A stretch of 34,845 nt of DNA, taken from Nitrosomonas sp. Its GTDB lineage: Bacteria > Pseudomonadota > Gammaproteobacteria > Burkholderiales > Nitrosomonadaceae. The notes under the pieces were generated by a model, which had not been told where the DNA came from, ran no database searches, and saw only the letters and a program-made list of their open reading frames with translations. A program made the translations under genes and the position numbers. The stretch covers positions 1 through 34,845 of the forward strand of contig JAGNZK010000033.1 in the NCBI GenBank assembly GCA_017984435.1, given 5' to 3'. Positions 7,879 to 34,448 of this stretch are shown in pieces (within the stretch, counting starts at the first letter, position 1; each line of letters opens with the position of its first letter).

Positions 7879-10800
7879 CTAGATGACGACAATATCCGCA
7901 CTGGTCATGGACAACCCAACGCCGAGCGTAGCAATTTGTATCGCAGCACCTGCACCGCTGCCTGTCGCATCGTATAACAGCGCACCCGTCACATTGTTAT
8001 AAATGATGAAATCATCCGCATCCACTGCTTGTGTACCTATTTTGAATTGGCTGGCCGCCAAAGCACCTGTCGTTGTTAATGCCGTAAATACCGCATTTTC
8101 CAGCTGGATGGTGTCATTCACAACACTGAAGTCAGTGATCGCGTCAATGTGACCCTTTGTCGTAAATCTGAAGATATCGTTACCGGCGCCGCCGGTTAAG
8201 CTATTCGTACTTGCACCGCCATCCAGCGTATCATTGCCCGCCCCGCCGTTTAACAGATTAGCAGCCGAATTTCCAGTCATCGCATTCGCCAAACCATTGC
8301 CTATGCCGTTGACCGCCGCGGTACCCGTCAGTATCAGATTCTCCACATTCGCGGGCAATGTGTAAGCCAGCCTGCTGCTGACCGTATCTGTGCCCTGGTT
8401 AAGGTTTTCAGTAACGACATCGCCCACATTCTCAACCAAATACGTGTCGTTACCCAATCCACCGACCATGATATCTGCACCAGACCACCCAGTTAAGGTG
8501 TCATCACCCCCACCACCATTTAAAGTATCGTTACCTGCCTGCCCATTTAACTGGTTGGCGGCACTATTGCCGGTGATAACATTATTTTGATCATTACCTG
8601 TGCCATTAATAGCCGATGTACCTGTCAATGTTAGATTCTCTACATTAACAGGTAAGGTGTAAGCCAATCGACTACTGACAGTATCTGTACCCTGGTTGAG
8701 ATTTTCAGTGACGATATCGCCTACATTCTCGACAAAATAAGTGTCATTACCCAAGCCGCCAACCATGGTGTCTATTCCGGACCACCCTGTCAACGTATCA
8801 TTACCGCCACCACCATTGAGTGTATCGTTGCCGGCCTGTCCATTGAGCTGATTGGCAGCGCTATTGCCAGTAATCACGTTATTCAGATCGTTGCCTGTAC
8901 CATTAGTAGCCGATGTTCCTGTCAACGTGAGATTCTCTACATTGACAGGTAATATGTAAGTTAATCGGCTACTGACCGTATCCGTGCCAGCATTAAGATT
9001 CTCAGTGACAACATCACCCACATTGTCAACCACATAACTATCATTGCCCAACCCACCGATCAGGATATCTGCTCCAGCACCACCATCCAAAATATCATCA
9101 TCCTCTCCACCATCCAGAGAGTCGTTTCCTACGCCACCATATAGTGTGTCGTTACCCGCGCCGCCATGAACTGTGTCACTGAAACTTCCACCGAAATAGG
9201 TATCGAAGCCACCGCCTAGATGCGCATTGCCCTGCCCAGTACCAGCGAACATCACTTCGGAATTATCACTTCCAAATTGATGTGCAATCACCGGCGTAGT
9301 ATCAACGACAGCATCGTTCTGCAGAGCCGTGTTGTCTGTCACGATGACCCAAAGACCTGCATATTCTGCGACGCCAATGCTGTGACTGTTAGCATCGGCA
9401 AGGAATGCAGCACCAGCCGCCGTCGCCGCGAAAAGGTCATAAGCTTCCTGCGCTGTCGCAGCGCCAGAAATCGTACCTGCTATACGCAAGCCGTTGTCTA
9501 ATATGATGTTGGTCCAATTTAGAGACTGGAACGCCAAACGGAAATCTTCGCCAGTCGAAGTGATCTCGATCCACCCGGTCGGATCGCCACCATCTTGTGC
9601 CGAAAGGGCACTGTCCGGGTTGTTTTCCATCCAATCACGAGCAACACGATTTGCAAGCGATGCCAGTTCATCGTCGATGACAAGTGCATTTCCTATGCCG
9701 CGCTGCACATTCACAATATCCGCAAGAGCTTTCTCGCTCGTAGAGAGCTTGTCGCCCGCCAGAACACCCAGCTCAGAAGTGAACACAGCCGGTACGCCGA
9801 AAGACATTGGATCGAAAGAGTTTAGATCAATCGTAATAGTCACGGGATCAATGGGATTTGCATCGGCATTTGCGATGTGACCGGCAGGGATGCCCCATTT
9901 GATGAAATATGCTAGAAGATTGCTCGCCTGACCCGACTCAACCGCAGCAACAGCAGCTGGATGCTGAGCGGCATAGAATGTAGCATCCAATAGGAGGTCA
10001 TCCAAAGCAATCTGAGACGAGGCCGCACTGAGAGCCTTAGATTCAATAGAAAGAGCAGACTTCGCCTGCAAACCATCAAATAAATTGTGCCATTTGTCTT
10101 CTTCGAGCTGTATCACCAAATCTGAGATTGAGTCTCCGAAAGGATTGTGATCATACACAAATCCTCCCAGCATATTACCAATAGTGGCTAAGGGTGCTGA
10201 AGCAATTCCCGAACTACCCAAAAGCCCTACTACGAGACCAACTAAAGTACCACCGGCTTCTGCAACCATGCCATAGGTGAAGTCCATTATTTCCGCATAT
10301 AAACGTCCTTCCCAACCACGACCATCAGCGTCAAATTCCGCATGTGCAATGTTAGCCAATCGATCGGCCACATCTAATGTTCTCGAGATGACCGGAATAT
10401 ATTGGGATTTCCCAAATTGTTCTTTTATATCAAGGAAAATTGCAGGTCCTAATACATCGAACTCGGCCCAGTCATTCACCATAGTATAGGTTCTAACAGC
10501 ATTTATAATTTTCAGAACATCGATCCCAGACTTCCAGGCACCAATTATCTCTTTGACAAGTGTAGCTGCTGCAACCTTGCTTTCATTTCCAACATCTGTA
10601 ACCTCAATGAACACTGCATCATTTGTACTAGATGAATTAGCTACGCTGAAAGGGACTGAGCTTCCATTACTAGAAAGAATCGCTGAAGATATGATGTTTG
10701 GACTCAGCGCATTCCATGCCTGTATCGAAACATCAGTGCTGCTCGCAATCGAAAGATTGCTTTGAGCCCCTCCTTGAATCTGAAAAATATTTGATCCAGA

Positions 10801-11835
10801 ACCTAAGGAACCAATCGAGATCGTAGGTACAGAAACATTTCCTAGCACCACCGGTGCAGCTCCACTTGCAACATCGTCATCAAGAATCGTTATCTGCCGT
10901 ATCGCAACCGCATCTGAACGCCCATCCGTTGGTGAAAGCCCAATCATCACATCGAAAGTCTCACTATTCTCGTCGATCTGATCTTCGTGAATGCCGACAG
11001 TAAACGTTGTCGTGTTGGCTCCAGCCAGGAAAACAACAGGAACACTTTCTGCGCCTTCATAATCATTGCCGTATCTATTTGAAGCAGAACCATAAAGCGT
11101 CGAATAATAAATGGTCGCACCCTGTAAATTGGTTCCGCTGCGCGTTACAGTAAAGGTAATCGTGTCATTATTTTCTACCACACTGGTCAGATTGGGAGTC
11201 AGTGTATAAGTTACCGCCGGGCCGGGAGAGTCATTATCGACGATGGTGAAGGTTGATCTTGCAGCAAAAGTGCCGAAAGGATCGTTTTGATTTTTCTGTA
11301 CCCAGGCTGCAAAGGTTTCATTACCCTCAGGTGCAAGATCATTAATGATAGTTACAGGCACGAAAATTGACGATGTGCCGTTTGCGAAGGTATAGGGTTT
11401 GGTATCGATCCCCTGATAATCACCATTGTTTGCAAAGCCTTCCGTCTGGACAGTACTGACATAAACAGTCTCAACCCCGATGCTGCTTGATCGAGTAATA
11501 GCTAAACTGACAGTACCACCGCCTTCATTCACATTGAGTGGTGTACTGATTGAATAGGTAGATGCGACTGCGGAATCGGCAAACTGAACTTTTTCAATAT
11601 TGGTAAGTTGTGCTGTGTAACCCGCATAAGAAGATGGCGCAGTAGCGAGTCCGGTGACATGTATTACACCATTCAAATCGGTAACTGTGAAATCGCTGCG
11701 GTTGCCAAAAAATACCGCTGTATCCGTACCAGCACCCCCATCGATAAAATCACTTCCACCATTCCCGTCAATGGTGTCGTTGCCAGCGGTGCCCGGAATG
11801 TCCTCACCATAAGTATGTCCTATTATTGTTGCCAT
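7879..11835 (-). CDS. Large RTX / Calx-beta secreted protein with a CAP-like domain
   Basis: This 1318-residue protein is predicted to be secreted by type I secretion and to bind calcium. A short RTX-like segment opens it (GTAGNDTIDGNGGSDFIDGG). Two Calx-beta domains follow at about 90-200 and 205-320, each ending in a DND/DDD motif. A Gly/Ala-rich helical middle (about 330-640) is unrecognised. A CAP/SCP-like domain lies at about 690-850 (LANRVARDWMENN, TGEDFRLAF, GLWVIVTDN). RTX nonapeptides (GGxGxDxxx) and three copies of a roughly 100-residue unit with VENLTLTGT come next. The C-terminus has the serralysin-type look (FIIYNNVTGALLYDATGSG) of an uncleaved secretion signal. There is no Sec signal peptide. 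GGAGA sits six bases before the ATG. No ABC, MFP or TolC genes lie nearby. Confidence 0.88.
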   Translation of the reverse strand: MATIIGHTYGEDIPGTAGNDTIDGNGGSDFIDGGAGTDTAVFFGNRSDFTVTDLNGVIHVTGLATAPSSYAGYTAQLTNIEKVQFADSAVASTYSISTPLNVNEGGGTVSLAITRSSSIGVETVYVSTVQTEGFANNGDYQGIDTKPYTFANGTSSIFVPVTIINDLAPEGNETFAAWVQKNQNDPFGTFAARSTFTIVDNDSPGPAVTYTLTPNLTSVVENNDTITFTVTRSGTNLQGATIYYSTLYGSASNRYGNDYEGAESVPVVFLAGANTTTFTVGIHEDQIDENSETFDVMIGLSPTDGRSDAVAIRQITILDDDVASGAAPVVLGNVSVPTISIGSLGSGSNIFQIQGGAQSNLSIASSTDVSIQAWNALSPNIISSAILSSNGSSVPFSVANSSSTNDAVFIEVTDVGNESKVAAATLVKEIIGAWKSGIDVLKIINAVRTYTMVNDWAEFDVLGPAIFLDIKEQFGKSQYIPVISRTLDVADRLANIAHAEFDADGRGWEGRLYAEIMDFTYGMVAEAGGTLVGLVVGLLGSSGIASAPLATIGNMLGGFVYDHNPFGDSISDLVIQLEEDKWHNLFDGLQAKSALSIESKALSAASSQIALDDLLLDATFYAAQHPAAVAAVESGQASNLLAYFIKWGIPAGHIANADANPIDPVTITIDLNSFDPMSFGVPAVFTSELGVLAGDKLSTSEKALADIVNVQRGIGNALVIDDELASLANRVARDWMENNPDSALSAQDGGDPTGWIEITSTGEDFRLAFQSLNWTNIILDNGLRIAGTISGAATAQEAYDLFAATAAGAAFLADANSHSIGVAEYAGLWVIVTDNTALQNDAVVDTTPVIAHQFGSDNSEVMFAGTGQGNAHLGGGFDTYFGGSFSDTVHGGAGNDTLYGGVGNDSLDGGEDDDILDGGAGADILIGGLGNDSYVVDNVGDVVTENLNAGTDTVSSRLTYILPVNVENLTLTGTSATNGTGNDLNNVITGNSAANQLNGQAGNDTLNGGGGNDTLTGWSGIDTMVGGLGNDTYFVENVGDIVTENLNQGTDTVSSRLAYTLPVNVENLTLTGTSAINGTGNDQNNVITGNSAANQLNGQAGNDTLNGGGGDDTLTGWSGADIMVGGLGNDTYLVENVGDVVTENLNQGTDTVSSRLAYTLPANVENLILTGTAAVNGIGNGLANAMTGNSAANLLNGGAGNDTLDGGASTNSLTGGAGNDIFRFTTKGHIDAITDFSVVNDTIQLENAVFTALTTTGALAASQFKIGTQAVDADDFIIYNNVTGALLYDATGSGAGAAIQIATLGVGLSMTSADIVVI
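8290..9060 (-). repeat. Internal ~300-bp tandem DNA repeats of the RTX gene
   Basis: The segment encoding the VVTENLNxGTDTVSSRLxYxLPxNVENLxLTG unit recurs near 8370, 8675 and 8975, a period of about 300 bp (100 residues). The nucleotide sequence is also strongly conserved between copies. Such arrays can expand or contract by recombination and often cause assembly errors. Confidence 0.8.
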
Positions 11836-27010: not shown

Positions 27011-30000
27011 ATGCGAAAAATAAAAAATTTCAGTGTGATATGGTTTGTCATCATTAACTGCATGCTCTATAGCATGACTGCATCAGCAGGCGATCAAACA
27101 TTTCATCATCAGATGGAAATTACGCTGTCGCCGGGCACCGCTGAGATCTGGGTTAAAGATCACATTTCTATTCCGGTACAAAATCAGAATCATAAAACAC
27201 CGATCAAACTTGACTTTAGCCTGCATGGCGATTTAACGGTTACCGATGCCCAGGGTGCGCAAGTTACCTTACGGCAAAGTAATGCTGCTTCGGACACCAG
27301 GCCAATTCCATTAAAACATTACACACTGACGTTACCGCCGCAACAGAAAGATGTCACCCTACATTTCAGTGGAAAAATCAATCATCCGGTGCAAGGTCCT
27401 GGGCAAGAATACGCCCGCAGTTTCAGCTATACGCCGGGCGTTATTTCGAGTGAAGGTGTTTTTCTGGCTAATTCCAGCGCCTGGTATCCGCAATTTGACG
27501 ATGCACTGGTGTCATTCCGACTCAATATTCAAGTGCCCGCCGGCTGGGATGTCGTCAGCCAGGGTACTTTAGTCAGCGAACAAAAAACCTCAACTGCGCA
27601 ACATGTGATTTGGGAAGAAAAACAATCACAAGATGACATCTATATCGTTGCGGGACGCTACAAACGTTACACACAATCCGCAGGTGCGGCGGATGCGTTG
27701 GTTTATCTGCGTAGCACCGATGATGCATTAGCCCAAAAATACCTGGACACCACCGCGCAATATATCGCCATGTATAACAAACTACTCGGTCCCTACCCTT
27801 ATACCAAATTTGCCCTGGTCGAGAATTTCTGGGAAACCGGTTACGGCATGCCTTCCTTTACCTTGCTGGGCCCCAAGGTGATCCGTTTCCCTTTCATCCT
27901 GCATTCCTCCTACCCGCACGAGATTCTGCATAATTATTGGGGCAACGGCGTGTTTGTCGATTACGCCAGGGGAAACTGGGCGGAAGGCCTGACCGCCTAC
28001 CTTGCCGATCATCTAGTGAATGAACAACGCGGCAAAGGCGAGGAATACCGCCGCGACGTGCTGCAAAAATACGCCGATTTCGTGAACAAGGAAAAAGATT
28101 TTCCCATCATTCAATTCGTGTCGCGGCATAGCGCCAGTTCTGAAGCCGTGGGCTATGGCAAAACCATGATGTTTTTTCATATGCTGCGCCAGGAATTAGG
28201 CGATGAAGACTTTGTACGCGCTTTGCGACAATTCTATAAGCAGTTTAAATTCAAGCAGGCGACTTTCAACGATCTGCAAAACACTTTCAACACACTCACC
28301 GGCAAGGATTTTTCCCGGCACTTTGAACAATGGGTACACCGCACAGGTGCGCCCAGCTTGCTGTTGCAGCACGCAGAAACCGAGCCCACCGCGCAAGGAT
28401 TCCAACTCACGCTAACGGTCGAGCAAACCCAAGCGGGCGATCCGTATCGCTTGAAGGTTCCGGTTTCCGTCACGTTGGAAGGTGAAGACATGGCAGTGCA
28501 ATCGCACATCACCGTCGATCAGCGCACGCAAACCATCGCACTGGATTTTCCCGCCCGTCCGGTGCGCGTCGAACTCGACCCGCATTTCGATGTATTCCGG
28601 CGCTTGGATAGCCGCGAGATTCCTTCCGCGTTGTCGCAAGGTTTCGGCGCGGAAAAACCGTTGCTGATTTTGCCTGCGCAAGCGGATAAATGGGCTCTGG
28701 AAGCGTATCGAGCGCTCGCAACGAACTGGCAGAAAACGCAATCGAGTCCATTGGAAATCGTCACCGACGATCAATTGAGAACACTCCCCGCAGATCGCAC
28801 CGTCTGGATCATGGGGTGGCAGAATAAATTCGCCGCCGCGGTTGCCCAAACCTTGGCGGATCGCAGGGTGTCTTATCAATCCAAGCAATTGCAGTTGAAT
28901 CAAAAAAACTATCCGCAAGCGGATCATGCCATCGTGCTGACCACCCGGCAGCCCACCAATCCGGACAAAACGCTGTTATGGGTCGCCGCCGACAACCCCA
29001 AGGCGATTGCCGAACTCGCGAACAAATTGCCGCACTATCGCAAATACAGCTATCTGGTGTTTAAAGGTGATGAATTGACCAATATCGACAAGGGTCAATG
29101 GCCGATTACACAATCGCCGCTAACGCAATGGATCAAACAGAAAGACGGCCACACGATTCACACCACGCACATCGGCATCACCAAACCGCGCCGCGCGCTG
29201 GCGGAACTGCCGCCGGTGTTTTCCGAAAGCCGCATGATGGCGGATATTAACCACTTAGCGCATGAATCGTTCAAGGGCCGCGAGCTCGGCACACCGGAAC
29301 TGGACAAAGCGGCTACGTATATCGCCAAGCAGTTTCAACAAATCGGCCTGCTACCTGGCGGCGACGACGGTAGTTTTTTCCAAACCTGGCAACAGGACGT
29401 CGGCTTGCCGAAAGGCAACATCACGCTACGCAATGTCGTCGGCATCCTGCCCGGCACCAACCCGCAGCTCGCTGGGCAAAGTTTGGTAATCGGCGCGCAT
29501 TACGACCATCTCGGCACCGGCTGGCCCGACATGCGCGCCGCGCATCAGGGAAAAATCCATCACGGCGCGGACGACAACGCCAGCGGCATCGCCGTAATGT
29601 TGGAACTCGCGCGCCAGATCGTGCCGAAATGGCAGCCGGAACGCACCGTCATTTTCGTCGCATTCACCGGCGAAGAAGCTAATCTGCTCGGCTCCAAGCA
29701 TTATGTCCGCAGCAACGATCAATTCCCGTCCGATAAAATTATCGCCATGCTCAATCTCGACACCGTCGGACGGTTAGGAAGCAATCCGGTCACCGTGTTC
29801 GGCACCGGGACCGCGCGCGAACTGGTGCATATTTTCCGCGGCACGGGCTTCGTCACCGGCATCCCGATCAACGCCGTGCAAGACGATTTCGGCTCCAGCG
29901 ACCAAGCCGCATTCATCCAAGCCGGCATCCCGGCCGTGCAATTCTTCGCCAGCGCACACGAGGACTACCACGCCCCCGGCGACACCGCCGACAAAATCGA

Positions 30001-30397
30001 CACCGCCGGACTGGTGAAAGTCGCCGCGATCCTGAAAGAAGCCACCGAATACCTCGCCAACCGCATCGAACCGCTAACGGTTACGTTATCATCAGCCCCC
30101 TCCTCCGCAGAATCCGCCGCACCCAAAGAAAAACGCACGGCCAGCCTCGGCACCGTCCCGGATTTCTCCTACCAAGGCGAAGGCGTACGCATCGACAACA
30201 CCCTACCCGGCTCCCCGGCGCAACAAGCGGGATTGCAACAAGGCGACATTTTGATTCAACTGGCCGGGCAACCGGTTAGTGATTTAGCGTCGTATGCGGC
30301 TATTTTGCGCACGTTGAAGGCGGGAGAGAAGGTAGAACTGCGGTATCGAAGGGATAATGCGGTGATGGTGGCTGAAGTGGTGTTGGTGGAGCGGTAG
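27011..30397 (+). CDS. Exported M1-M28-PDZ fusion metallopeptidase
   Basis: This 1128-residue protein has an N-terminal signal peptide ([18 protein letters not shown]). Residues about 30-450 form an M1-type aminopeptidase unit: zinc motif H303-E304-xx-H307, a downstream Glu in NWAEGL (about 325), and [13 protein letters not shown] in place of the GxMEN loop. A linker region (about 460-740) follows. An M28 peptidase domain lies at about 760-1010 with all expected metal residues: [36 protein letters not shown] and [14 protein letters not shown]-terminal PDZ domain covers about 1045-1125 ([22 protein letters not shown]). It probably trims peptides in the periplasm. The second half is visibly more GC-rich than the first. 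Confidence 0.88.
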
Positions 30398-30546: not shown

Positions 30547-31158
30547 TTAATTCTTCTTAAATATCTGTGCGGCCGTTGCCTGCAATCCTTGTCTTATAAT
30601 TTCAGCAGCGAGAAAGGGATAGCGCTTTAACAGATGTGCCAATGTGACCTCACCAAATGCAAAATCCACCATCAGTTCACATCTTTCCTGGACAAAATAA
30701 TCGTCATCATTAAGACGTAATTGTTTAATGGTGGCCTCAACTTGATTTGTCAAAACCTTGGACAACCCTGCACCCGGCTTAACAAGGCAGCTCGGCACAT
30801 CAAGAACAAACCATCCAGATTGCACGACGAATGGGTCGATTACATCTTTGCTGTCACTTTTATACCCATTTACTCGGTGTGAACAAAGGCGATAATTTTT
30901 CCATTCATACGTTTCGCTTGGATGAATGGATTTTGGAAGAAAGTGATCTGTTGAGCCAGGCGGGACGAGATAAAAACAGGTGTATGCACAGATGCCTAAA
31001 TATGCCGCGTGTAAATCATGCACAGAATTTTTCCAAAACGCATTTTTCCGAAATTCCGTATTTGTTGGGTTTGGGCATTTTTTAAGGAATGCCTTTCCAG
31101 GTTGCCTAACTTTTGAATTGAATGATGCAGGTTCCGCCTTAAGCTGGACAGGAATCAT
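30547..31158 (-). CDS. HNH endonuclease, PtuB-like (Septu-type effector)
   Basis: This 203-residue protein has an HNH (beta-beta-alpha metal) nuclease core. C57-x3-C61 precedes STDHFLPKSIHP with D71-H72, followed by EWKNYRLC (N88) and HRVNGYK (N97, K100). This DHFxPKS...YxWxNYRLxC...N..K layout is that of TIGR02646/PtuB-type HNH proteins partnered with ATPases in Septu systems and some retrons. The start overlaps the ATPase stop (ATGA, 31155-31158), so the two are co-translated. I infer that it is the DNA-cutting effector gated by the ATPase. It is the last gene of the cassette. Confidence 0.75.
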   Translation of the reverse strand: MIPVQLKAEPASFNSKVRQPGKAFLKKCPNPTNTEFRKNAFWKNSVHDLHAAYLGICAYTCFYLVPPGSTDHFLPKSIHPSETYEWKNYRLCSHRVNGYKSDSKDVIDPFVVQSGWFVLDVPSCLVKPGAGLSKVLTNQVEATIKQLRLNDDDYFVQERCELMVDFAFGEVTLAHLLKRYPFLAAEIIRQGLQATAAQIFKKN

Positions 31159-33020
31159 AGAATTACTCCATGCTCCTCAGCGAAGAAAATCCATCTAGGC
31201 CAGAACTTATCGTCAGAAGCAAGGTAACGAACCAACCTCTCTGAGACGTTACGTACATCATCAGGAGAAGCCGTAGCGCTACTTTGCAACGCTTTCGCCG
31301 CCTCAATAGCCGCCTCCGCCTCACTTGAACGTGCATGCCTTAGCTCAAATACAGGTGACGTGAGCCACGATGACACGTCCCCAAATTTTATAAAATCGAT
31401 TTCTTTGAGCATAACCTTGCCACCTTCCAGATCAAGATGAAACAAAGAATCTGTGGCCGGATCGAAAACCTCCTCTGACGAGGCCATTACCAAAGGCGAA
31501 TGTGTTGCCACAATATATTGTGCTTCTAGCTCAGACGAAAGCATCTCTTGTAACGACATTAGCGCAGGTAATACCGCACGTTGCCAACGTGGATGTAAAT
31601 GCGCTTCCATTTCATCAACCAATACTACGATTCGCCGTTGGGGGTCAGTGTAAGCTAATTTGGCGGCGATGACGTGTTCGGTCCATGCCCAAACAATGAG
31701 GTATGCAAGCGTTACAATTCTACGAACACCAGCAGACGAATAAATAATTGGAGTAGTTCCAAAGGGGTGTTTGATTGTTGGTATATCTCGCGGGTCTCCA
31801 AGCACACGCACTGGCTCGCCCGGTTCGAAGACCCCGAGGTCAGGCGGTGACAAGTGTGCCAATACCCTCTTGAATGTTTCGTATGGGGATGTAGATGGAC
31901 TGCTTTGCCAACGAACCCAATCACGAATTAGCCCTTCAATACGACCAGACAATCCATCCCACACCTCCTCGCTAGAGAAAACAGCTTGCTGCCCAAGTTG
32001 CGGAATCCCCTGCTTTGCCGGATCCCAAACAGCAAATGAGCCATCTACGCGCGCATAAACAATCAAACCTGGAATAGTAGGACGATTCTTTGGAGTGGGC
32101 CAAGCCAATGCTTTCCAATCGAACGCGATAGTCTTTCGCTCTGGTTTGGCCGCCTTCCCCTTTATTTCAAACGTAATTTCAGTCTTGCCATGAGGTAATC
32201 CTGGATTTGATAACGCTGGACGACCGGCCCATGTTCCAGTTAAAGCCCACCAACAACATTCTAGCAAGAACGTTTTGCCAAGTCCGTTATCTCCAGTTAT
32301 CAACGTAAGCCGGTCAGCAGGTTCAAGCACAAATTTCTCTGCTGGACCAAGGCCAACCAACTCTAGATATGAAAGAGTTCCACCTTGATCTGGCTTAGAG
32401 TCTGGTGCGGAAGGCAGTAAAGGACGAAGCTCATGCCACACATAAATTTTGTCATCAAAATAGGTCTTAGCCATCGATGAATCAGGCAACGAAGTATCAA
32501 GCAGAGCCGCTTTTTCTTGCGGTGTTATGTTGAATGCCTCCATGAACGTCGTCAAAATTTTTTCGAATGAAATTGTGTCTGGCCATTCACTGCGCTGATA
32601 CAACCATACTGCCAAATGGAAGGCTGGTATCTTCTTTTTCTTGGGAAGTCGTGATTCTAGAAACGACACATAGTTTCTATCCCAGCCCCAAACTCGTGAA
32701 GCGCGTGGATGGATGAAAGCGTCGAGAAACGAACCTGTATTTACTGCATTTAGACCTTTGGGGGCATAGTCAGGACGCACCCATTTCTTGTTTTTATCGG
32801 AAGACTTGAAAGGCTGGAAGAACCAATCTGAGGTGGGATCGATTTGGTGATGTTCTTTTAGAAATGCATCTGTAAATGAGTCCATAGCAAACGTGACCGA
32901 TGTATCAACCGGCAAGTTGGCTTGCTTGCAAGCTAAAAAAGTAATGCCATGAAACGGGTGAACGTCTGCAAGAGCTTCTATCGAATCAGCAATCTTCGTA
33001 GCTGTAAAATATTTACTCAT
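31155..33020 (-). CDS. ABC/OLD-like ATPase with a novel N-terminal domain, PtuA-like
   Basis: In this 621-residue protein, residues 1 to about 205 form an unrecognised domain rich in Trp, Phe and Lys (WFFQPF, WVRPDYAPKG, WGWDRNY, PKKKKIP). The C-terminal two-thirds is an ABC-type ATPase: Walker A GDNGLGKT at 243-250, Walker B VVLVDEMEAHLHPRW near 467, and an H-loop in YIVATHSPLVMAS. Such ATPases (PtuA in Septu, OLD, RecF-like) sense or load on nucleic acid and control a nuclease partner. It overlaps the methyltransferase by 4 bp (33017-33020) and the HNH gene by 4 bp. The N-terminal domain may recognise DNA or modification state, but this is inference. Confidence 0.72.
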   Translation of the reverse strand: MSKYFTATKIADSIEALADVHPFHGITFLACKQANLPVDTSVTFAMDSFTDAFLKEHHQIDPTSDWFFQPFKSSDKNKKWVRPDYAPKGLNAVNTGSFLDAFIHPRASRVWGWDRNYVSFLESRLPKKKKIPAFHLAVWLYQRSEWPDTISFEKILTTFMEAFNITPQEKAALLDTSLPDSSMAKTYFDDKIYVWHELRPLLPSAPDSKPDQGGTLSYLELVGLGPAEKFVLEPADRLTLITGDNGLGKTFLLECCWWALTGTWAGRPALSNPGLPHGKTEITFEIKGKAAKPERKTIAFDWKALAWPTPKNRPTIPGLIVYARVDGSFAVWDPAKQGIPQLGQQAVFSSEEVWDGLSGRIEGLIRDWVRWQSSPSTSPYETFKRVLAHLSPPDLGVFEPGEPVRVLGDPRDIPTIKHPFGTTPIIYSSAGVRRIVTLAYLIVWAWTEHVIAAKLAYTDPQRRIVVLVDEMEAHLHPRWQRAVLPALMSLQEMLSSELEAQYIVATHSPLVMASSEEVFDPATDSLFHLDLEGGKVMLKEIDFIKFGDVSSWLTSPVFELRHARSSEAEAAIEAAKALQSSATASPDDVRNVSERLVRYLASDDKFWPRWIFFAEEHGVIL

Positions 33021-33943
33021 AAATTCGACAAATTGTTAGCTGAATATACACAGAACTCTCGATTTAAATCGATACCGATTGCATGGTATCCCATTGCCAA
33101 GGCAACACGGGCAGTTGTGCCGCTGCCAAGAAATGGATCGAGTACAACCCCTCCTGGCAAGCAACCGATCTGAAGGCATCTCTGAACCAGCTCGTCAGGA
33201 TATGGAGCCGTATCTAGGCCATTAGATGCTTTGGGTCTTGCAGCAATTGTCCACATATCTTCTTCAACTTTTTGTTCAATTAAAGGTTGTTTGTTGAAAT
33301 AATATCGCCTGTTCTTTGCGAACATAAAGAGATTTTCATAGCTTCTGCTAGCCCGATCTGCAACAGATTCTGGCAAGCATCTTTCGCGATGCCAAATGAT
33401 TGGACTTCTCAGCACCCATCCGTGGGTCGTCATCTCGATAGCAACACGCCATGGTATTCCGATAATTGACTTACGTTGAATCCCGATACCTAGGCCACCA
33501 CTCTTATCCACTGCACGCAGACCAAAGCGGCGCTTATTGCTTTTTCGGTCATTACCGTGTGACTTACCTTTCCCTGAATAATAGGTGTCACCTAGATTCA
33601 GAAAGAGCAAACCATCGGGTCGCAGTACACGCATTATCTGATCCATCACTGCACAAATTGATTGCACGTAACTATCGACGGTTTCTTCGAGACCAATTTG
33701 GCCTTCAACACCGTAATCACGAAGCCAAAAATAAGGTGGGGATGTTACGACGCAATGGACCGATTCATCCGGTAGTTTACTGAGATTTACTACAGCATCA
33801 CCTTGATAGATGCTCCATTGCTGCCCCCCTAATGTCGACCCATGCCATTCCTGCGCCTCATTTAAGGATTGTTTTTCATTTGCCAAGCACGCCCCGTGCC
33901 CCACTATGAGTTCTTGAGAAAATTCTTTTTCCATTGATGGCAT
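33017..33943 (-). CDS. Site-specific DNA methyltransferase (beta order, N4-cytosine or N6-adenine)
   Basis: This 308-residue enzyme transfers methyl from SAM to a DNA base. Catalytic motif IV is TSPPYF at 67-72, followed by the family-typical LRDYGVEGQIGLE. The SAM-binding motif I is C-terminal (LDPFLGSGTT near 269-277), which gives the beta permutation. The TSPPY form suits N4-cytosine methylation, but N6-adenine cannot be excluded. The variable target recognition region lies at about 130-245. ATG 33943 and ATG 33934 are both possible starts; no Shine-Dalgarno is clear. It is the first gene of the overlapping MTase-ATPase-HNH cassette and probably marks self DNA. Confidence 0.88.
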   Translation of the reverse strand: MPSMEKEFSQELIVGHGACLANEKQSLNEAQEWHGSTLGGQQWSIYQGDAVVNLSKLPDESVHCVVTSPPYFWLRDYGVEGQIGLEETVDSYVQSICAVMDQIMRVLRPDGLLFLNLGDTYYSGKGKSHGNDRKSNKRRFGLRAVDKSGGLGIGIQRKSIIGIPWRVAIEMTTHGWVLRSPIIWHRERCLPESVADRASRSYENLFMFAKNRRYYFNKQPLIEQKVEEDMWTIAARPKASNGLDTAPYPDELVQRCLQIGCLPGGVVLDPFLGSGTTARVALAMGYHAIGIDLNREFCVYSANNLSNL

Positions 33944-33987: not shown

Positions 33988-34306
33988 TCACCGACCAATC
34001 GGCTTATACCGAATCCGCTTAGGCTTCGCGCCTTCCTCACCCAAGCGCTTTTTCCTATCCGCTTCGTATTCCTGATAGTTGCCGTCGAAGAAGGTCCGCT
34101 TGGAATCGCGTTCGCAGGCGAGTATGTGGATGACGATGCGGTCGAGGAACCGGCGGTCGTGGGAGATCTCACCAGCACGCAACCAGCAAACTCCAGCAGG
34201 GAATCTTCCAGCGCACGCAGGGTTTCCACATCCAGATCATTTGATAGCTCATCCGGCAGCAGCACGTTGCTACCGGAGATGCGGGTTTACGCCAGATGCA
34301 GGCGCG
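33988..34306 (-). pseudogene. ettA: Decayed 3' fragment of ettA (ABC-F translation factor)
   Basis: Two frames together spell the end of EttA. One reads [20 protein letters not shown] (the normal Walker B is LLLDEPTNDLD) and then [15 protein letters not shown]. The other continues with [17 protein letters not shown] and ends [10 protein letters not shown]-stop, the standard EttA C-terminus. The frameshift lies near 34180, and an in-frame stop lies upstream near 34290. The Walker B residues are altered, and everything 5' is missing, replaced by IS sequence. Intact EttA would bind the ribosomal E-site and throttle translation by energy state; this copy cannot. Confidence 0.85.
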
Positions 34307-34448
34307 TATAGGAAAAATAAACGCCCTTTTCCATAAGAACCGAATGTATCGGGAAACAGTTTGGTCGTCAATCTGGCCGGAAAGTCATCCGAAATTCGCA
34401 AAACTTGTGTCAGATCAGCAACAAAAAGATTGGTTTTGGTTCCTTTTC
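34307..34448. other. Unassigned sequence between the ettA remnant and the IS3 end
   Basis: This is 142 bp without a recognisable gene. It lies outside the probable IS3 terminal repeat that begins near 34449. It may be further degraded ettA or other IS debris. Confidence 0.4.

Follow-up and report, generated by a model that had tools for sequence, protein, structure and literature searches.

A DNA methyltransferase gene linked to a long form of the Septu ATPase PtuA in Nitrosomonas and distant prokaryotes

The contig JAGNZK010000033.1 of Nitrosomonas sp. (GCA_017984435.1; its 34,845 nucleotides, as analysed here, are called the window) carries three minus-strand genes that encode a DNA methyltransferase (MTase), the ATPase PtuA and the HNH-type nuclease PtuB. 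The ATPase/nuclease pair is Septu proper, an already known kind of system, and not merely Septu-like. The new element is the link of the MTase to a long PtuA that carries an additional N-terminal domain (N-domain). Because the same gene set recurs in distant bacteria and in one archaeon, the trio appears to be a genuine defence unit that couples DNA methylation to the Septu machine, and the N-domain and MTase together look like an added sensing module.

The three genes and their products

The features of the locus are as follows.

33017..33943, minus strand: beta-class DNA MTase (N6/N4 type), 308 aa (open reading frame (ORF) list, PADLOC, Pfam)
31155..33020, minus strand: long PtuA (Septu ATPase), 621 aa, with its start inside the MTase stop (ATGA) (PADLOC, fold match)
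32385..33020, minus strand: additional N-domain, spanning PtuA residues 1-212, that short PtuA lacks
31155..32384, minus strand: ATPase core of PtuA (Walker A GDNGLGKT, Walker B VVLVDE, HLHP, THSP)
30547..31158, minus strand: PtuB, HNH-type nuclease, 203 aa, with its start inside the PtuA stop (ATGA)

Neighbouring genes overlap by four bases (ATGA), MTase and PtuA at 33017-33020 and PtuA and PtuB at 31155-31158. The ORF list thus agrees with the original prediction, which was made from the letters of the window, on three minus-strand genes joined by two ATGA overlaps, and the motifs quoted there (TSPPYF, DPFLGSGTT, GDNGLGKT, VVLVDEMEAHLHP, THSP and STDHFLPKS) are all present in the translations. 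Its assignment of the products as a beta-type MTase, an ATPase and an HNH protein is likewise borne out by PADLOC, Pfam and the conserved residues of PtuB.

PtuA matches the PADLOC model PDLC00270 over residues 4-620 of 621 (E 1e-256), and PtuB matches PDLC00348 over residues 1-195 of 203 (E 2.9e-65). In Pfam, PtuA matches AAA_21 (E 3.9e-14); PtuB yields an HNH match below threshold only (HNH_4, E 0.21), so that its HNH assignment relies on PADLOC and on residues conserved in an alignment of 76 PtuBs (D71-H72, N88, N97 and K100). The Walker A and B motifs of PtuA are intact, and the PtuB gene follows directly downstream with its overlap. An AlphaFold model of PtuA (pLDDT 93.2, pTM 0.86) was compared with the PDB: the 50 best matches listed are PtuA chains of retron type I-A and Septu, with the retron I-A PtuAs best. 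Given the near end-to-end PADLOC matches and the PtuA fold, the trio is a variant of Septu. The labels PtuA-like and PtuB-like had captured the relation to Septu but were too weak.

The MTase matches the PADLOC type II MTase model PDLC03387 (E 1.5e-79) and Pfam N6_N4_Mtase (E 2e-39). Motif IV (TSPPYF) precedes motif I (DPFLGSGTT), an order that we take to mark the beta class, whose usual chemistry is presumably N4-methylcytosine (m4C). The profile matches in the PDB comprise N4-cytosine as well as N6-adenine enzymes, so the modified base may be either cytosine or adenine. Both motifs are strongly conserved: among 52 MTase rows picked by an MTase score >300 bits, with one record counted twice, TSPP[YF] is kept in 51 and D[PC]F-G-GT also in 51. 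Cousins of about 40% identity adjoin genes for XcyI, for SmaI (with an XRE gene) and for an HNH nuclease (L185-L187), in what are ordinary-looking type II restriction-modification (R-M) loci. CCCGGG is the site of both SmaI and XcyI, whose partner MTases are of the m4C type.

Linkage of the methyltransferase to long PtuA

Searching the genomes of 84,980 species yielded 79 loci whose ranking followed PtuA similarity alone (the best 80 of 502 confirmed were kept), so the set is a sample near the window PtuA rather than a full census. Long PtuA is encoded at 68 of these loci and short PtuA at 11. Two long loci cut at a contig edge (L116 and L149) were left out. An MTase gene lies directly upstream on the same strand in 53 of the 66 assessable long loci (52 open; L110 broken), and in 56 of 69 once a viral-collection contig (L054), L035 (G374) and the window are added; L052 duplicates the record of L153, with identical length and place, and is not counted. 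A gene order recurring this often is beyond chance. Of the 79 scanned loci, 72 have PtuB behind PtuA. The seven others comprise L095, L136 and L151, which end at a contig edge, and L158, L159, L160 and L162, which have short PtuA. From MTase stop to PtuA start the distance is -16 to +56 nt with a median of 5, in all 54 loci measured (L126, with a broken PtuA, and the duplicate L052 are omitted). MTase-bearing loci span 14 named phyla, including one archaeal locus (Methanosarcina), with Spirochaetota represented by L110 only.

Short PtuA differs sharply. A relative of these MTases was found within 1.5 kb upstream at none of 33 short-PtuA loci (tblastn, E 1e-4), a set in which 30 loci have at least 1.4 kb upstream and some are near-copies; unrelated MTase families could have escaped this search. 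The difference between long and short loci is significant (Fisher p 1.8e-15, with related rows drawn from different collections), also within the genome collection alone (53/66 long versus 0/8 short, p 1.4e-5). The original prediction would have suffered had the ATPase/HNH pair almost never occurred with the MTase; this is indeed the case for short PtuA, but not for long PtuA.

The MTases of 41 trios (outside one alphaproteobacterial clade and L035) have a mean identity of 62% and a minimum of 48%. A relative at E 1e-50 or better occurs in only 3 of 299 genomes of the phylum, the window's own included, and two of the three are trios.

At 101-2088 of L054, an ORF that looks recombinase-like by eye and an XRE gene recognised by Pfam precede the trio, the XRE gene ending next to the MTase gene, which suggests that this trio is mobile cargo. 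One metagenome-assembled genome of KSB1 contains a long-PtuA locus with MTase (L123) as well as a short PtuAB (L145).

The N-terminal domain and the history of the unit

The N-domain comprises about 210 residues and is modelled with a pLDDT of 96.1. It has no shared Pfam match, no match among PDB sequences and no significant match among PDB folds. At short-PtuA loci, similarity to the window PtuA starts at residue 194 or later. An N-domain profile found no match in the SmaI and XcyI proteins encoded beside the MTase cousins, the two proteins compared.

In a quick, midpoint-rooted tree built from 66 long PtuAs, 7-8 changes are needed to account for where the MTase is present or absent, and 4-5 of them are forced by well-supported branches. 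MTase loss looks repeated, to judge from this tree, because MTase-less rows are nested inside MTase-bearing clades. A tree of 95 ATPase cores places 23 of 29 short PtuAs apart; L150, L152 and L156 are nested among long trios, and L145, L157 and L158 are less resolved. For the nested short PtuAs, tblastn over as much as 4 kb upstream (0.85 kb in the case of L156) shows no N-domain, and no MTase was found within 1.5 kb. Among the loci seen, no case was found in which the MTase is kept and the N-domain lost, whereas the converse is common. In three loci, decay has the opposite direction from MTase loss: the MTase is open and PtuA or PtuB is interrupted (L126, L140 and L132). Across the 41 trios, evolutionary distances of the MTase correlate with those of the PtuA core (0.74), the N-domain (0.67) and PtuB (0.65).

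A proposed mechanism

To our knowledge, how Septu senses phage is largely open. The reading that we prefer, tentatively but as a serious possibility, is that the MTase is both the recognition and the self-marking subunit and that the N-domain couples it to a PtuAB nuclease that is off by default. The MTase would bind a specific DNA site and methylate that site in the host DNA. It would double as the recognition subunit, much as BrxX may in BREX and as in type I and III R-M systems, where the M or specificity subunit does the recognition. The N-domain would dock on the MTase, either free or bound to DNA, an unmethylated site (e.g., in incoming phage DNA) would be signalled to the PtuA ATPase, and the ATPase would switch on the otherwise silent PtuB, which would cut phage DNA or host tRNA and stop the infection. 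PtuAB is presumably silent until triggered, because short Septu is tolerated without such an MTase. With recognition and modification in one protein, loss of the MTase would silence the branch without cell death, and this harmless silencing would explain the MTase-less loci; there, the N-domain would be idle or put to another use.

Elements of this scheme have precedents in the literature. In BREX, the same MTase is reported to be needed for marking and for defence (PMC11842806). tRNA-Tyr is cut by PtuAB of retron-Eco7 (PMC11555353) and by Septu EcB88, whose phage defence requires both ATPase and nuclease (PMC13096335); for another Septu, nicked DNA is the target as told in PMC11555353. A fuller version, in which an m4C-type MTase marks self and senses foreign DNA and the new PtuA domain relays an unmethylated site to a tRNA-cutting, cell-stopping PtuAB, is attractive but unlikely to hold in all its parts. 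If true, it would mean that restriction-style discrimination of self from non-self is wired to abortive tRNA cleavage.

Several observations weigh against the MTase being the recognition and marking subunit of PtuAB. At 4 of the 69 long loci only MTase remnants are left (L095, L098, L099 and L102), and at 9 nothing recognisable as an MTase lies at that place (L097, L113, L114, L117, L118, L120, L142, L144 and L146). These 13 loci keep the PtuA Walker residues in 13/13 and the PtuB active-site residues in 11/13 (the PtuB of L146 is broken, and that of L095 lies beyond the contig edge). The ratio of nonsynonymous to synonymous substitution rates (dN/dS) of PtuA is 0.27-0.44 in a Dolichospermum/Anabaena clade (five rows, of which L116 is not assessable for MTase). 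The MTase is therefore dispensable for keeping PtuAB and is no obligate antidote, as an intact PtuA and PtuB can outlast it. Co-divergence does not point to the N-domain in particular as the part that docks on the MTase: once one alphaproteobacterial clade is taken out, the MTase has a partial correlation of 0.40 with the N-domain given the core, but of 0.57 with the core given the N-domain. PtuA residues 1-100 track PtuB better than the MTase. The N-domain evolves faster in MTase-less rows (median ratio 1.88 versus 1.32, p 0.002), an effect that is weak within short-branch cyanobacteria. Finally, remoter long PtuAs lie outside the sample.

For comparison, Symploca has a PtuA dN/dS of 0.18, and cyanobacteria that carry the MTase have values of 0.08-0.14, mostly at higher dS. 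PtuA is thus under purifying selection without the MTase, perhaps weaker than with it. In the Dolichospermum/Anabaena clade, PtuB is discordant with PtuA: L116/L118 and L117/L120 pair at 88%, and cross pairs reach ~64-68%, as if PtuB alleles had been swapped by recombination.

Alternative explanations

The main rival, which we consider possible though doubtful, gives the MTase the role of a guard or antitoxin. MTase binding would hold PtuAB inactive, or the MTase would serve as bait; a phage inhibitor or DNA mimic would remove it, PtuAB would fire, probably on tRNA, and methylation would be secondary. Relatives make this attractive. In retron-Eco7, PtuAB is the toxin, a reverse transcriptase (RT) with multicopy single-stranded DNA (msDNA) is the antitoxin, and tRNA-Tyr is the target (PMC11555353); Septu EcB88 likewise cuts this tRNA (PMC13096335). 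The position of the MTase gene ahead of ptuAB resembles that of the RT gene in Septu type II (PMC8565338), and the best fold matches of the window's PtuA are, as said, retron I-A PtuAs. PtuA is also kin to AriA of PARIS, which is reported to detect an anti-restriction protein (PMC12839542). However, loss of an antitoxin MTase beside an intact PtuAB should kill, yet such loci exist, and the catalytic motifs kept in 51 of 52 MTase rows exceed the needs of mere bait.

An R-M-like antidote, the model of the original prediction, is improbable. Here the MTase would only protect host sites, and PtuA and PtuB would recognise and cut the same sites when unmethylated. The MTase cousins that pair with the XcyI and SmaI restriction enzymes (L185 and L186) and the fixed gene order with a nuclease speak for it. 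However, MTase decay beside intact PtuAB motifs would not be survivable with a self-cutting restriction enzyme, and purifying selection on PtuA and PtuB persists in MTase-less lineages. The same evidence bears on the original prediction that the pair attacks unmodified DNA, which is unproven: simple cutting of unmethylated host DNA is unexpected, because MTase-less loci keep the PtuAB motifs, and PtuAB of relatives is reported to cut tRNA-Tyr (PMC13096335, PMC11555353).

That an orphan or type II MTase sits beside Septu by happenstance might be read from the nine long loci that lack any trace of it, but is very improbable given that the MTase keeps its position, strand and near-zero spacing at 56/69 long loci versus 0/33 short ones, and given the rarity of MTase relatives (3/299 phylum genomes, 2/3 of them trios). 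Just as hard to credit is a suicide or anti-element switch in which PtuAB destroys the DNA marked by the MTase. A writer-reader pair might well consist of an MTase and a nuclease that has an additional domain, but nothing in the data favours this reading, and with the MTase gene directly preceding ptuAB, their ends overlapping or nearly so, self-marking would make the host destroy its own DNA.

Relation to known systems

The trio shares with Septu type I the near end-to-end PADLOC PtuA and PtuB matches, the ATPase fold and the Walker and HNH-type residues. It differs by the ~210-residue N-domain of PtuA and the upstream MTase, such an MTase being absent from the 33 short-PtuA loci. Septu type I is a two-gene system with no further core gene, whereas 56 of 69 long loci have the MTase upstream. 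Septu type II, or retron type I-A (RT, msDNA, PtuA and PtuB), likewise places one more gene ahead of this ATPase/HNH pair, but in the trio this gene encodes a DNA MTase and no RT lies directly upstream. Type II R-M systems of the SmaI and XcyI families have an MTase of the same broad family, and that of the trio appears active from its motifs; its partner, however, is an ATPase plus an HNH nuclease, and the MTase can be lost. In a type II R-M system the nuclease should not be maintained after MTase loss, whereas in L098, L099 and L102 the PtuA and PtuB ORFs are intact although only remnants of the MTase are left.

The likeness to BREX and to type I and III R-M is one of proposed logic, by analogy with an MTase needed for marking and defence (PMC11842806). 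Unlike BREX, the trio has three genes only, and no PADLOC BREX model is among the ATPase matches listed (best 25 of 134) or the PtuB matches (23/23). PARIS (AriA and AriB) has a related ABC ATPase, the AriA profile matching PtuA at 2.1e-18. However, the ATPase of the trio is far closer to PtuA (1e-256), and its nuclease is PtuB, with no TOPRIM AriB.

As for earlier accounts, RM-like systems are said to include OLD-type ABC ATPases combined with HNH or other nucleases (PMC12839542, citing Krishnan et al., 2020). Septu type II with its RT has been reported, as has a separate helicase-m5C-MTase-ATPase operon (Hma) often found near Septu type I (PMC8565338). No description of an MTase-linked Septu was found in the literature searched or in PADLOC-DB; Krishnan et al. 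(2020), a possible prior account, lay outside this search. The original prediction of a hybrid of possibly undescribed type therefore stands in part: the three-gene unit recurs and matches no named system in these sources, but it is a variant of Septu, and the N-domain that sets it apart had been missed. Judging from the PADLOC matches, annotation with that tool would split the trio into Septu type I plus an MTase.

Besides the retron, the DNA MTase with the PtuA-specific domain is a second candidate control module for PtuAB, found in many phyla. If the preferred mechanism is true, restriction-type self marking is joined to an effector that possibly acts by abortive infection. The question of the trigger also becomes testable, as sequencing can map a methylation motif, which can moreover be turned on and off.

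Genomic setting in Nitrosomonas

The window comes from a draft genome of 2.8 Mb in 85 contigs, a 92%-complete assembly. C-terminal pieces of EttA (TIGR03719), one with a stop, lie at 33997-34307 on the minus strand, so that the trio precedes a decayed ettA, as had been predicted. No EttA match above the curated cut-off was found elsewhere in the assembly, a cut-off exceeded in only 4 of 14 control genomes. From the MTase gene upstream to the contig end (~900 bases) there is no listed ORF of more than 98 aa, frames that run off the end being unlisted.

On its other side the trio lies behind the gene of a predicted peptidase of 1128 aa (27011-30397, plus strand), in which M1-type, M28-type and PDZ parts appear fused by eye. 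Relatives of this peptidase (E 1e-50) occur in 41/41 genus genomes searched, some of them partial or only ~33% identical. Six relatives have varied other genes in the place of the trio, none with this PtuA, and among 61 genus genomes this PtuA is found in the window's own alone. The trio was therefore probably acquired sporadically in Nitrosomonas. Farther away, at 7879-11835 on the minus strand, the window encodes a 1318-aa protein in which Calx-beta-like and RTX-type calcium-binding repeats are seen by eye.

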